A program made the translations under genes and the position numbers. From assembly GCA_022340745.1 (NCBI GenBank), contig JAJDNL010000301.1, forward strand, positions 1-34,850: a stretch of DNA of 34,850 nt, read 5' to 3'. The notes beneath the pieces were generated by a model. The model was not told the origin of the DNA and did not search any database. It worked only from the letters and a program-made list of their open reading frames with translations. Below are positions 30,989 to 34,850 of this stretch, one piece after another (within the stretch, counting starts at the first letter, position 1; each line of letters begins with the position of its first letter). This DNA is from Deltaproteobacteria bacterium. Its GTDB lineage: Bacteria > Desulfobacterota > Syntrophobacteria > BM002.

Positions 30989-31774
30989 ATGCTTGAAAAC
31001 ACCTTCATACACCTCCCTCACATCGGCCCCAGGACCGAGATTGATCTCTGGCGCCGGGGCATTCTCAGCTGGGATGACTTGGAGCTTCATCTCAAGGATT
31101 GGCCGGAAAATACCGAACGGAGGAGACTCATTACCAGGCAGCTCCACGAGTCAATCAACTCCCGCGGCCAAGCCGCCTACTTTTACAACCTCCTCCCCTC
31201 CTCCGAGCGTTGGCGACTCTATCGCGACTTCCAAGATCGCTGCGGTTTTCTGGACATCGAGACCACTGGTATAAGCAGTTACGACCACGAAATTACCGTC
31301 ATTGGTCTTTATGATGGTCTCCAGACGCATCACTTCATCAACGGGGAAAACCTGGAGGAGTTCGAGAATGCGGTAGAGGATTATGATTTGTTGATTACCT
31401 TTAATGGCAGTCGATTTGACCTGCCTTTCCTCACCAGCTTTTTTCCCAACCTCCGGTTCCGTCAGGCTCACATCGATCTGCTTCATGTGGCACGGCGGCT
31501 GGGCTACCGCGGTGGTCTCAAACGAATCGAGCCTCTTTTTGGAATCTTCCGTGACTCGGAGATTCAGGAGATGAGCGGCTACGAGGCGGTTGTACTCTGG
31601 CACGAGCATCTCGGTGGCAGTCCCGACGCCCTGCCCACACTGCTCAAATACAATGAAGCTGACGTGGTCAACCTCAAGACCATCATGGAGATCGCCTGGG
31701 AGCAATTGCAGCAAGAGCTGGAGAACGAAGTTGGCCGTTTGCTGCCATTCAATTTGGTAAATGGTAAATCGTGA
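30989..31774 (+). CDS. DEDDy/RNase H-like exonuclease domain protein (YprB family)
   Basis: The 261-aa product matches the RNase_H_2 (YprB) family. D89 and E91 in GFLDIETTG, D144 in TFNGSRFDLPFL, and Y221/D225 in YNEADVVNL give the DEDDy metal-binding set of 3'-5' exonucleases. Residues 1-75 hold an HhH-like start (FIHLPHIGPRTEIDLWRRGI) that could touch DNA. I start at ATG 30989 because the 110 in-frame codons before it are the repeat element. The last codons (LVNGKS and stop) lie inside a GGTAAA word-repeat. The substrate is unknown; a repair or RNA-trimming role is inference. Confidence 0.85.
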   Translation: MLENTFIHLPHIGPRTEIDLWRRGILSWDDLELHLKDWPENTERRRLITRQLHESINSRGQAAYFYNLLPSSERWRLYRDFQDRCGFLDIETTGISSYDHEITVIGLYDGLQTHHFINGENLEEFENAVEDYDLLITFNGSRFDLPFLTSFFPNLRFRQAHIDLLHVARRLGYRGGLKRIEPLFGIFRDSEIQEMSGYEAVVLWHEHLGGSPDALPTLLKYNEADVVNLKTIMEIAWEQLQQELENEVGRLLPFNLVNGKS

Positions 31775-31918: not shown

Positions 31919-32057
31919 TTTTGGGACGAATTTTGCATCAGACCCATGGCGAGGTTTCTGGTCGGTGGTTTTACTGAATCATTGTATTTCACAATACTTA
32001 GCGCGGAACATAGCCGCCCTCAGTTGGCGGAGCTTTGACACAGTCCATTAGGTAAAC

Positions 32058-32067
32058 AGTTGTGCTG
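32058..32067 (+). repeat. 10-bp direct repeat AGTTGTGCTG, left copy
   Basis: The same ten bases recur at 32490-32499, directly at the attC crossover point. The two copies bracket the gene at 32112-32408 and its attC. Both contain the GTT core that integron integrases cut. The left copy also lies in an inverted repeat GGTAAACAG/CTGTTTACC (32051-32092). Confidence 0.5.
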
Positions 32068-32111
32068 TGTACAGGCGGCTGTTTACCATCACTAGGAAAA
32101 AGGAGAGATGT

Positions 32112-32408
32112 ATGGAATCGAGCGGCTCTAATGCGGAGATTATAGCTGAATTCAAAAAGAGAAGGACACGTCAGATAATGGCGGTAGGCCCAATTGTCCT
32201 GGCATTCATTGCCCTCCTGTCAGTTGAGAACAATCCAACGGGCATCTTCGGACTTGCGCCAAGCACTATTCTGGTCGGTGCTTTCGCTGTGATCATTTCT
32301 GTTTTAATATTTTCATTGCTTAATTGGAGATGCCCGTCGTGCAATAAGTATTTAGGCAAAGCCATCAATCCGAAATTCTGCTCCAAGTGTGGGGTTCAAT
32401 TAGGGTAA
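32112..32408 (+). CDS. Integron cassette protein: two membrane helices plus C-terminal zinc ribbon
   Basis: I start at ATG 32112, with AAGGAGAG a few bases before it. The 98-aa product has a charged start, two hydrophobic segments (about 23-39 and 47-66), and a zinc ribbon with cysteine pairs CPSC (about 70-73) and CSKC (about 90-93), ending GVQLG. An attC begins nine bases after the stop, so this is a gene cassette. Cassette proteins are often unique, and no function is recognised. It sits on the far side of intI rather than in the array. Confidence 0.7.
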   Translation: MESSGSNAEIIAEFKKRRTRQIMAVGPIVLAFIALLSVENNPTGIFGLAPSTILVGAFAVIISVLIFSLLNWRCPSCNKYLGKAINPKFCSKCGVQLG

Positions 32409-32417
32409 AAAAATAAG

Positions 32418-32497
32418 GAACTAACCACTCGCTGCAGTCGGATCCGCCTACGCTCCTGCTGGAGCTTCGGCGCGACCGCTGAGCTCGGAAGTTGTGC
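32418..32497 (+). other. attC recombination site behind the integrase
   Basis: The arms are GCT[G]CAG[T]CGG[A]TC (32431-32444) and GACCGCTGAGC (32474-32484). They pair perfectly once three extra bases (G32434, T32438, A32442) are looped out, the hallmark of a folded attC. The left end is ACTAAC (32420-32425) and the right core GTTGTGC (32491-32497). The two ends are poorly complementary, as expected when the right core comes from the next segment. The middle forms a GCTCC-TGCT-GGAGC hairpin. Confidence 0.85.
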
Positions 32498-32551
32498 TGC
32501 AAAGATATTCAAGAGCGGGATACTGATCATCCTTTCCGGAATTGAAAGGCA

Positions 32552-32809
32552 TCATTCATGTGCTGCACGCTGCAATTCCTCACGTATTACCTTTCGCAAA
32601 ACAGCTTCGTCGACAGGCTTCTTCTGCTTGGCAAGGTGATGTCTGAGAGCCTCGTTGATCATAGTTTGGTAGCCGTATCCCGCCTTATCGGCGCGTGTAC
32701 GAAACTCCTCGAGGACATCATTGTCGATGAAAATGGTAATTCTGGTTTTTCTTTTTTGAGGAACAACCGCGCCTCTTTTTCCTTTCTTGAAATCATATTC
32801 CTTCTTCAT
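32552..32809 (-). CDS. brnA: BrnA-type antitoxin
   Basis: The 85-aa product starts MKKEYDFKKGKRGAVVPQKR and has a ribbon-helix-helix core (KTRITIFIDNDVLEEFRTRA, then GYGYQTMINEALRHHL), both typical of BrnA. BrnA binds BrnT and represses the shared promoter. Its start overlaps the end of the toxin gene by 17 bp, the usual toxin-first order for this family. A small CCTTTC/GAAAGG hairpin lies just past the stop without a T-run. Confidence 0.9.
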   Translation of the reverse strand: MKKEYDFKKGKRGAVVPQKRKTRITIFIDNDVLEEFRTRADKAGYGYQTMINEALRHHLAKQKKPVDEAVLRKVIREELQRAAHE

Positions 32810-33065
32810 AGGCTTTTCTCTCTCTTCGCGTGGCTCGCCGGGCAGATATCAATCGGATATCGTCCCCGCGATAGGTGTAAACAACGACCACGACACGATT
32901 CAAAGCGTCTGCACCAACGGACACAAACCGTTCTTCAATTTGGGCGGTCTTGTCTTCGATTGTCAGCGCCATGGGATCAAAAAGCACAGCCTCTGCATCA
33001 GAAAATCGGATCTTGTGCTTGCGAAAGTTGGATTTTGCCTTTACTTGATCCCAAGTTACTTTCAT
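32793..33065 (-). CDS. brnT: BrnT-type ribonuclease toxin
   Basis: The 90-aa product has the BrnT layout: WDQVKAKSNFRKHKIRFSDA at 5-24, DPMALTIEDK, EERFVSVGADALNRVVVVVY and the ending RLISARRATRRERKAYEEG. BrnT toxins are small ribonucleases that block translation until BrnA neutralises them. The ATG is 5 bp past the promoter -10 box, so the mRNA is nearly leaderless. It stands between a cassette and intI on the same strand as intI. Confidence 0.92.
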   Translation of the reverse strand: MKVTWDQVKAKSNFRKHKIRFSDAEAVLFDPMALTIEDKTAQIEERFVSVGADALNRVVVVVYTYRGDDIRLISARRATRRERKAYEEGI

Positions 33066-33070
33066 AATAG

Positions 33071-33099
33071 ATTATGCATATATTATATGTATATGTCAA
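33071..33099 (-). promoter_or_regulatory. Promoter/operator of brnT-brnA
   Basis: On the minus strand TTGACA (plus 33094-33099), a 17-bp spacer and CATAAT (plus 33071-33076) form a strong promoter. The spacer is an A/T-rich near-palindrome (ATGCATATATTATATGTAT), a likely binding site for the BrnT-BrnA complex. Confidence 0.82.
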
Positions 33100-33138
33100 G
33101 CAAAACGGTGCGGCACTTGTCTGGCTGTAGTAGATAGC

Positions 33139-34092
33139 TCACAACGTATCAAACGGGCTCTGCACGCCCATCCCACCCTTCCCAATAACGTGGGTATAGA
33201 TCATTGTGGTGGAAACATCCTTGTGACCGAGCAGTTCCTGTACTGTCCTAATGTCGTAACCAGACTCAAGCAAATGGGTGGCAAAGCTGTGGCGAAAAGT
33301 GTGAGGACTAATTGGTTTTGAAATGCCCACAGTGCGTCCTGCGGTGCGGACAGCCTTCTGGAGCCCGCTTTCATTGAGGTGGTGGCGTCGCATTTTCCCA
33401 CTGCGCGGATCCACGGCCATGCGCTCAGACGGGAAAACGTATTGCCATCCCCATTCCCTTGCTGCCTTTGGATACTTTCTTTCCAGGGCGAAGGGCAGGT
33501 AAACTTCACCGTGACCTTTTTTGAGATCTTGCTCGTGAATGATCTTGACCCTGCTGAGGTGCTCCAAGAGAAAAGGCTCCAGTTGCCCGGGCAGCATCGT
33601 TGTCCGGTCTTTCATGCCTTTGCCATCTCGCACAGTAATCTGACTTCGTTGAAAGTCGAGATCCTTCACCCGCAACCGAACGCATTCCATGAGCCTCAGC
33701 CCGCAACCATATATGATCTTCGCCATCAACCCATAGGTACCTGATATGGCGGTCAGCACACGCGCGACTTCTTCTTTGCTCAATACCGTCGGCAATTTCT
33801 GCGGTCGCTTGGCCCTTTCCATATGGCCGAAGTCACCCAACTCCACTTGCAGAACATGTTTGTAGAGAAAAACGAGGGCGTTGAGAGCCTGATTTTGGGT
33901 GCTGGCTGCTACTTTACGGTGAGTCGCCAGATAAGAAATGTATTGCGAGATTTCTTGCTCTCCCATATCCTTGGGATGGCGCTTGCCGTGGAAGAGTATG
34001 AACCTCCTGATCCATTGCACGTAGGCCTGTTCGGTGCGAATCGAGTAGTGCTTTTTGCGGATTACTTCGCGGACTTGGTCGAGAAGTCTCAT
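33139..34092 (-). CDS. intI: Integron integrase IntI
   Basis: IntI is a tyrosine recombinase that inserts and excises cassettes at attI and attC. The 317-aa protein has the core-binding domain ([20 protein letters not shown], 16-35) and catalytic residues R133, H264, R267, H290 and Y299. The extra domain unique to integron integrases is present at about 190-222 ([20 protein letters not shown]), followed by [12 protein letters not shown]. This separates it from XerC/D. A GGGG ribosome site stands a few bases before the ATG. It points away from the cassette at 34359 onward, the classic integron layout. Confidence 0.96.
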
Positions 34093-34357
34093 CGGGGTGC
34101 CCCTTTCTCTATCTTTACCTCTTACAGTGCGCCTTTAATCTATCAACATAATGAATACGCATGATCCTTGCAACAGCAAATTCTCGATTTTGAGAGACAG
34201 GGAGATGCTGCGCAGAGCGTGGCAAATGATATTTCCGTATTTTTCGTTTTCAATATCGTGAGAGCCACGCGATAAGTATCTGTAGTCTTTTGTAGTGTAA
34301 GGTCTGGTAAAGAGAATTTCCTCATTATAAAGCGGATAATACGCCGTATAATCTAAG
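34093..34357. promoter_or_regulatory. intI leader and attI region
   Basis: No gene. For intI, TTGCAA and TATGTT with 17 bp between (minus strand, about 34130-34170) could be the promoter. For the cassettes, TATAAT (34347-34352) sits six bases before the crossover and could be the -10 of the cassette promoter, though no good -35 is seen 17 bp upstream. GGATAATACG and GTATAATC are similar words next to each other, as integrase-binding direct repeats would be. No LexA box was recognised. Confidence 0.5.
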
Positions 34358-34365
34358 GTTAGGGC
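34358..34365 (+). other. attI/first-cassette junction GTTAGGGC
   Basis: GTTAGGGC fits the core GTTRRRY. It is the exact reverse complement of GCCCTAAC (34739-34746), the left end of the attC after the next gene. That match is expected for an inserted cassette, because its first bases and its attC end were joined in the circular form. Crossover would be between G34358 and T34359. Confidence 0.85.
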
Positions 34366-34401: not shown

Positions 34402-34710
34402 GTGGATACTGCGGTGGATTCTCTGAGGTGTCCAGTTTGTCAAAAGCAAGCGGCGAAAGGCTGGGAGATTTTCTTTGCACCATTTTGGATCGCAAGATTG
34501 TGCAGACACTGCAGGGCTAAGCTTAAGTTGAATTATGACACAATGTTCATGCTCTTCGGGTTCATGGTTGCAGGAATCATCGTGGCCACAATAGTGGACA
34601 AGCTATTTTCAGTCGAGGCGGATCTTTTCTCTGCTGCGTTGGTTGTCATATTTACACTGGTTCCTATTTTTCTGGGTAAGAGGCTATTTGCCGAGAAGAA
34701 CATAAAATAG
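34402..34710 (+). CDS. First-cassette protein: N-terminal zinc ribbon plus two membrane helices
   Basis: The 102-aa frame opens with GTG, 43 bases after the cassette boundary and without a clear ribosome site, as is common in cassettes. Cysteine pairs CPVC (10-13) and CRHC (about 34-37) make a zinc ribbon, followed by two membrane helices (about 48-66 and 75-93) and a lysine-rich end. The order is the reverse of the protein at 32112. No family or function is recognised. An alternative GTG lies four codons on. Confidence 0.7.
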   Translation: MDTAVDSLRCPVCQKQAAKGWEIFFAPFWIARLCRHCRAKLKLNYDTMFMLFGFMVAGIIVATIVDKLFSVEADLFSAALVVIFTLVPIFLGKRLFAEKNIK

Positions 34711-34738
34711 GAAGACATCGGGCCAATAATAACCACAC

Positions 34739-34850
34739 GCCCTAACCACTCGCTGCAGTCGGACGGGGCTAACAGTTTCTTTCGTTTTTCAGTGTGAGTG
34801 CGGAAGGTCAAATAACAAGCACCCACCTGCCCCGCCGCTGAGCTCGGCCG
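34739..34850 (+). other. attC site of the first cassette, cut by the window end
   Basis: GCCCTAAC (34739-34746) is the left end. The arms GCT[G]CAG[T]CGG[A]CGGGGC (34752-34769) and GCCCCGCCGCTGAGC (34829-34843) pair fully with three looped-out bases (G34755, T34759, A34763), the same pattern as the attC at 32418. The middle is about 59 nt. The window stops at CCG, whose final G is the base just before the crossover, so the next cassette is not visible. Confidence 0.9.

Follow-up and report, generated by a model that had tools for sequence, protein, structure and literature searches.

Background

The origin of integrase-less cassette arrays is usually ascribed to unspecified loss. A cluster of attC sites that lacks an integron-integrase is known as a CALIN (PMC8618304). 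In a published assay, the integrase IntI1 excises genes located between an attC and an attI2-type site (PMC12901181), and in the integron of Vibrio cholerae, toxin-antitoxin cassettes limit cassette excision (PMC11023631).

Here we examine a locus from a deltaproteobacterial genome in which the position of the integrase gene itself, rather than that of a nearby cassette, is the odd feature: intI lies within a same-oriented array, between one attC (attC1) and attI. The window, that is, the whole stretch of DNA that was analysed (34,850 nucleotides), is one complete contig of a 301-contig, 3.9-Mb genome. The named relatives are metagenome-assembled Deltaproteobacteria, Syntrophobacterales or Desulfobacterota, some of them incomplete; one of the loci compared, L062, comes from a chromosome-level assembly without detectable intI. 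The set of attC-bearing loci compared is small, and the phylogeny was built from one locus, with three genomes unplaced. The attC covariance model used here (R1) was trained on 16 attC from relatives and from other contigs of the same genome, with no sequence from the window. An Rfam scan of the whole window produced no match.

Layout of the locus

The right end of the window is an ordinary integron platform that consists of intI on the minus strand followed, on the plus strand, by attI, gene 2 and attC2. The product of intI (33139..34092) is a full-length integron integrase that scores 485 bits against TIGR02249 (E=7.6e-146), vs a cut-off of 265, and aligns end to end with the structure of V. 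cholerae IntI4 (2a3v, E=1.8e-97), the integrase-specific insertion included; it thus combines the attributes of an IntI, namely, a tyrosine recombinase with the IntI-specific insertion and a score above the family cut-off. The putative attI (34232..34360, core GCGGATAATACGCCGTATAATCTAAG G^TT with the G at 34358) is a G^TT junction 5' of intI at which, among the dozen or more loci of the genus that carry the same element, different cassette genes begin; in the window, its boundary GTTAGGGC at 34358 matches the R'' box of attC2 in 8/8 positions. Gene 2 (34402..34710, from the list of open reading frames, with an assumed GTG start) encodes a small zinc-ribbon membrane protein with no Pfam or NCBIfam hit, and attC2 (34738..34850; 50 bits and E=1.1e-12 with R1) is cut by the contig end at 34850.

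Leftward from the 3' side of intI, the order is brnT, brnA, attC1, gene 1, its leader and a gene for an RNase H-domain protein. The toxin gene brnT (32793..33065, minus strand; PF04365, E=1.2e-28, 99.6 bits) and the antitoxin gene brnA (32552..32809, minus strand; PF14384, E=5.7e-12, 46.3 bits) are adjacent and both score above the Pfam cut-offs, as required of a BrnTA toxin-antitoxin pair, and brnT has a promoter-like site of its own (TTGACA-17-CATAAT, 33099-33071, 11/12 in a promoter scan). Together, intI and brnAT make up a module of 1867 bp (32492-34358) between attC1 and attI. These two sites are in direct orientation, so that the integrase gene fills a cassette-like interval. The base composition of the module (45.7% for brnAT, 52.1% for intI, 41% for the attI region) is not strikingly different, and there is therefore no sign of recent import in this respect.

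Gene 1 (32112..32408, plus strand), on the 3' side of intI, encodes a 98-aa membrane protein with a C-terminal zinc-ribbon motif (CPSC..CSKC); it belongs to no family in Pfam or NCBIfam and has orthologues with 79-84% amino acid identity in three genomes, G007, G002 and G009. The products of genes 1 and 2 are alike in being small membrane proteins with zinc-ribbon-type cysteine pairs and no known family. The first-pass annotation had proposed, from the letters of the window, that the small gene is followed by an attC with the same arm pattern as the array attC, and this is borne out. The attC1 site (32417..32497, plus strand) scores 54.9 bits with R1 (E=3.6e-14), attC1 and attC2 are the only two hits of this model in the window, and the first arm of attC1 is 100% identical to that of attC2 (34742) over 22 bp. 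The bottom strand folds into an L''/L' stem with extrahelical bases, and the arms follow the R''-L''...L'-R' pattern with the extrahelical bases on one side. In a shuffle test, compensatory changes in the attC arms were not in excess (80.7% vs 80.3% of cells paired), because these arms hardly vary; support for the arms was therefore taken from a slid-register control and from the R1 score.

The 10-bp repeat and the supposed left edge of the gene-1 cassette

The window contains two exact copies of the word AGTTGTGCTG and no more, one at 32058..32067, inside the leader of gene 1, and one at 32490..32499, which includes the R' box of attC1. The window contains 39 distinct 10-bp repeat pairs spaced within 450 nt, so such repeats are commonplace, and it is only the position of this pair that makes it notable. 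For this word to turn up by chance within 630 nt upstream, the probability is about 7e-4, but the test behind this value was picked with the repeat already known. No comparable repeat is present at the three orthologous gene-attC loci, the best upstream match to the edge word being 7-8/10.

The placement of the repeat had been read as that of a direct repeat bracketing a cassette, and one explanation considered for it was a jump of the cassette to a secondary GTT site. In mechanistic terms, IntI would have used a genomic GTT of the non-classical, attG type at 32059, 3' of intI, as the target for the gene-1 cassette, the flanking GTT being the two junctions. There is some substance to this reading: attC1 is real, a G^TT is present at both edges within the shared 10-bp word, and insertion at attG sites is a published activity of IntI, at least as Loot et al. 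2024 are represented in PMC12901181. The comparison with relatives speaks otherwise. The leader (31919..32111, plus strand), a 5' region with a ribosome-binding site that was delineated by alignment with relatives, is 83% identical between 31919-32090 of the window and L062:12429-12610, and this alignment runs unbroken across the left repeat, the word itself being identical in L062. The leader also aligns with L070, L071 and L072 and, more weakly, with L064 and L065. Thus, both sides of the left word (and of position 32059) are conserved in the intI-less loci L062, which lacks gene 1 and runs on with the same leader sequence, and L070, where the word reads AGATGTGCTT. In L071 and L072, which keep the gene, its attC and the part of the leader further upstream, the word is absent together with the segment that bears it. 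The left copy also sits in a predicted hairpin (GGTAAACAG..CTGTTTACC, window 32048-32094, z=-2.7) that is poorly kept in relatives.

The second line of evidence comes from the boundary itself. The R'' box of a cassette's attC is expected to be complementary to the first bases after the left G^TT. The R'' box of attC1, GGAACTAAC, predicts the start GTTAGTTCC (cassette start GTTAGTTC), with which the left edge GTTGTGCT (GTTGTGCTG in the R''/R' comparison) agrees in only 3/8 positions, through the GTT alone. Within the 262 nt upstream of gene 1, no other clear start was found that would fit R'', the best candidate reaching 4/8. In the same test, well-preserved cassettes of the genus agree in 7-8/8 positions and gene 2 in 8/8; several decayed cassettes also fall short, such as the second and third internal cassettes of L075 with 3-4/8. 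Hence attC1 is an attC by structure, without any remaining matching cassette start.

At two intI-less loci, L071 (genome G002) and L072 (genome G009), gene and attC persist although a GTT junction is missing, precisely the configuration that had been named in advance as counting against a jump, and there is no match between the left edge and R'' of attC1. Moreover, the unit of leader and gene is present in four species, so an insertion at this place would need to be old and fixed. An empty site in relatives, to be expected in the form RNase H-leader...AACAG joined to TTGTGCTGCAAAGATATTC-brnA, was not found: in none of the relatives are the two flanks directly connected, and none that lacks the cassette shows the site that an attG-type insertion calls for. 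The same reading would further imply that gene 1 is mobile, with CTCGGAAG joined to TTGTGCTGTGTACAGG after excision and AG^TTGTGCTGTGTACAGG as the junction of the circle. Insertion of the cassette at 32059 is therefore very unlikely, and this reading is already largely refuted. Of the bracketing repeat, the two copies stand, but the left one is not a cassette edge, given the conserved leader and the 3/8 boundary. The case has some corrective value: a flanking repeat with a GTT is by itself insufficient to diagnose a cassette insertion, and it is the R''/R' match and the relatives that decide.

A probable resident first cassette in an old array

The left chromosomal anchor of the locus is the gene for the RNase_H_2-domain protein (30989..31774, plus strand; PF13482, E=9.7e-36), with orthologues that are 87% identical in four congeners. 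In L062, L063 and L064, arrays of attC without intI come after this gene, and the same holds for L066, where the gene is 72% identical. In both the window and L062, the leader adjoins the same RNase H gene, which indicates that the locus is ancestral; in L070 and L071, the leader adjoins different genes, so position alone is no proof of vertical descent. In L062 (12429-13365), a vapBC-like pair with its own attC takes the place of gene 1, the leader being kept as far as the ribosome-binding site and the junction lying directly behind it.

In three congeners (L074, L075 and L076), arrays that lack intI have gene 1 and attC1 as their first cassette; each of them contains at least three further attC, and the junctions between gene 1-attC1 and the following cassette agree in 8/8, 8/8 and 7/8 positions, respectively. 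Taken together, these observations make it likely, in our judgement, that an old chromosomal array lies beside the RNase H gene, with gene 1 and attC1 as its resident and probably immobile first cassette, that nothing jumped to 32058, and that intI-brnAT lies inside this array. The placement of intI and the toxin pair within an older array is thereby the best supported of the three options put forward in the first-pass annotation. For a rearranged integron, another of these options, no inversion was seen, both attC being in the same orientation. Gene 1-attC1 is joined to the same second cassette in no relative, so there is no true before/after pair; and what stands against the resident-cassette explanation is that it leaves the 10-bp identity between the R' edge and the leader to chance.

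How intI may have come to lie within the array

If the array is old, intI might have entered it recently or might have been there in the ancestor and lost elsewhere. In the first scenario, DNA with intI, brnAT and attI came in from elsewhere, as a circle or a fragment, and was integrated at attC1 of an array that had no intI, whether through attI x attC recombination or in some other way. It is favoured by the absence of intI from 9/9 congeners and by the lack of any match to DNA of the brnAT region among 97 other genomes. Also, the R' box of attC1, GTTGTGC at 32491, is atypical in the genus (the others are GTTAG/GTTGG/GTTAT), which would be the outcome if the module had brought in the bases behind the G. 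There is, however, no donor, the nearest intI being only 62% identical, and the attI that belongs to this intI is native to the genus, whose ancestor must therefore have had a matching intI. A recent insertion accordingly strikes us as possible but somewhat doubtful.

The attI core, GCGGATAATACGCCGTATAATCTAAGG^TT, is found at a dozen or more dispersed places in 7/10 genomes of the genus and in 0/138 genomes outside it, and no intI was detected in 6/7 of the attI-bearing genomes, which are metagenome assemblies and in part incomplete. Besides the window (34232-34360), the loci are L126-L129, L131-L136 and L141, with L130 and L137 recognized by eye, and in the single-contig genome G006, five BLAST matches to attI lie at different positions. 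The copies are conserved up to G^TT, beyond which the sequences differ and lead into different genes. At the loci for which a downstream attC was found, the bases that follow the core fit the R'' box of that attC in 8/8 positions (window and L132), 7/8 (L126, L133 and L136) or 6/8 (L141). The dispersed copies look like genuine attI platforms that have no integrase next to them, which raises the question of whether several platforms per genome depend on one integrase or are moved by other means. Some attC-bearing units seem to be bounded by an inverted TGGAAAAGTGTGRATTWAGGG-like word, most clearly on contig C226 of the same genome (L026:9645-10654), and inverted repeats of this type also occur at L029:3143-3226 and L126:2325; such ends hint at mobilisation via terminal repeats, in the manner of transposon-like units. 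In L026, L029 and L136, the terminal attC copies consist of the R''-L'' half and a common tail (GTGAACATTRCATACT...), which recalls a conserved 3' end shared among the dispersed units.

In the second scenario, intI was present after gene 1 in the ancestor and was lost in all sampled relatives, by excision between attC1 and attI or by decay. The persistence of attI with correctly matched cassettes in six genomes without detectable intI is in line with this history, and so are the clean 8/8 junctions of gene 1-attC1 with the next cassette in L074 and L075, as excision would leave them; in Treponema, there is a precedent of intI being gone with the attC kept (PMC3607928). The cost is that several independent losses are needed on the one-locus tree and that no remnants of intI or brnAT were found beside gene 1 in L074-L076. 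On balance, we consider ancestral presence followed by loss to be an evenly poised proposition.

A trivial explanation, that two array fragments were joined in the assembly at similar attC sequence, should be considered for a short-read metagenome assembly in which array contigs are broken at attC, the window itself ending inside attC2 at 34850. The common stretches are at most 22 bp long, which is short for an assembler join, and the RNase H gene and leader are colinear with L062; an artefact of this kind is most improbable.

A possible self-excising integrase module

Because attC1 and attI are in direct orientation, attC1 x attI recombination by IntI could in principle remove intI itself, together with brnAT. 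The product would join CTCGGAAG to TTAGGGCTTAAAT, and the excised circle carrying the intI module would join ATCTAAGG to TTGTGCTGCAAAG. After excision, gene 1-attC1 would directly abut the cassette that follows, as is the case in L074, L075 and L076, and the reverse reaction would insert, that is, restore, the module. The activity of IntI1 on attC and an attI2-type site provides a precedent for the proposed reaction (PMC12901181). Conceivably, brnAT, located beside intI and with its own promoter-like site, could penalise loss of the integrase. The relatives resemble the excision product, but the change may have run in either direction, as loss of the module or as its insertion.

The full proposal would be that intI is a cassette-like module with attC1 at one end and attI, in direct orientation, at the other, protected by the toxin-antitoxin pair, that IntI can remove or reinsert its own gene, and that a transient integrase serves the dispersed attI in trans; we offer it as speculation and deem it unlikely as a whole. 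If intI indeed excises via attC1 and attI, this would be a simple route from a complete integron to an integrase-less array.

Comparison with known systems

In the literature searched, nothing pertinent was found on integrase genes that have attC or cassettes on their 3' flank. At 15 other intI loci, a generic attC finder detected no convincing attC on the 3' side and a convincing array attC at L099 only, on the usual side; this finder is insensitive, having missed both sites of the window, and many of the contigs end at the array.

With sedentary chromosomal integrons, the locus shares a full-length intI read away from the array, an attI, and cassettes with homogeneous attC; unlike them, it contains an extra resident cassette with an attC of the same type and orientation 3' of intI, which places intI inside the array and not at its end. 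The congeners' arrays are clusters of attC near which no intI was detected, in metagenome assemblies that are partly incomplete; they correspond to CALIN (PMC8618304), but many of them retain a recognisable attI and are dispersed over the chromosome. The array of Treponema phagedenis (PMC3607928) is comparable in that a syntenic attC array stays where intI is missing; it is a single locus, whereas the congeners examined here have many loci and preserved attI. Cassette insertion at attG, as described by Loot et al. 2024 and relayed in PMC12901181, likewise places a cassette-like gene and its attC away from the main array, with GTT at both ends; relative to that account, the left GTT of the window differs in not being a cassette boundary and in being dispensable in orthologues. 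A further parallel to the intI-brnAT module is found in the Delta-attI-type cassettes (PMC12901181), which are also segments between attC and attI in direct orientation; the segment in the window, whose excision is hypothetical, differs in carrying the integrase gene and a toxin-antitoxin pair.
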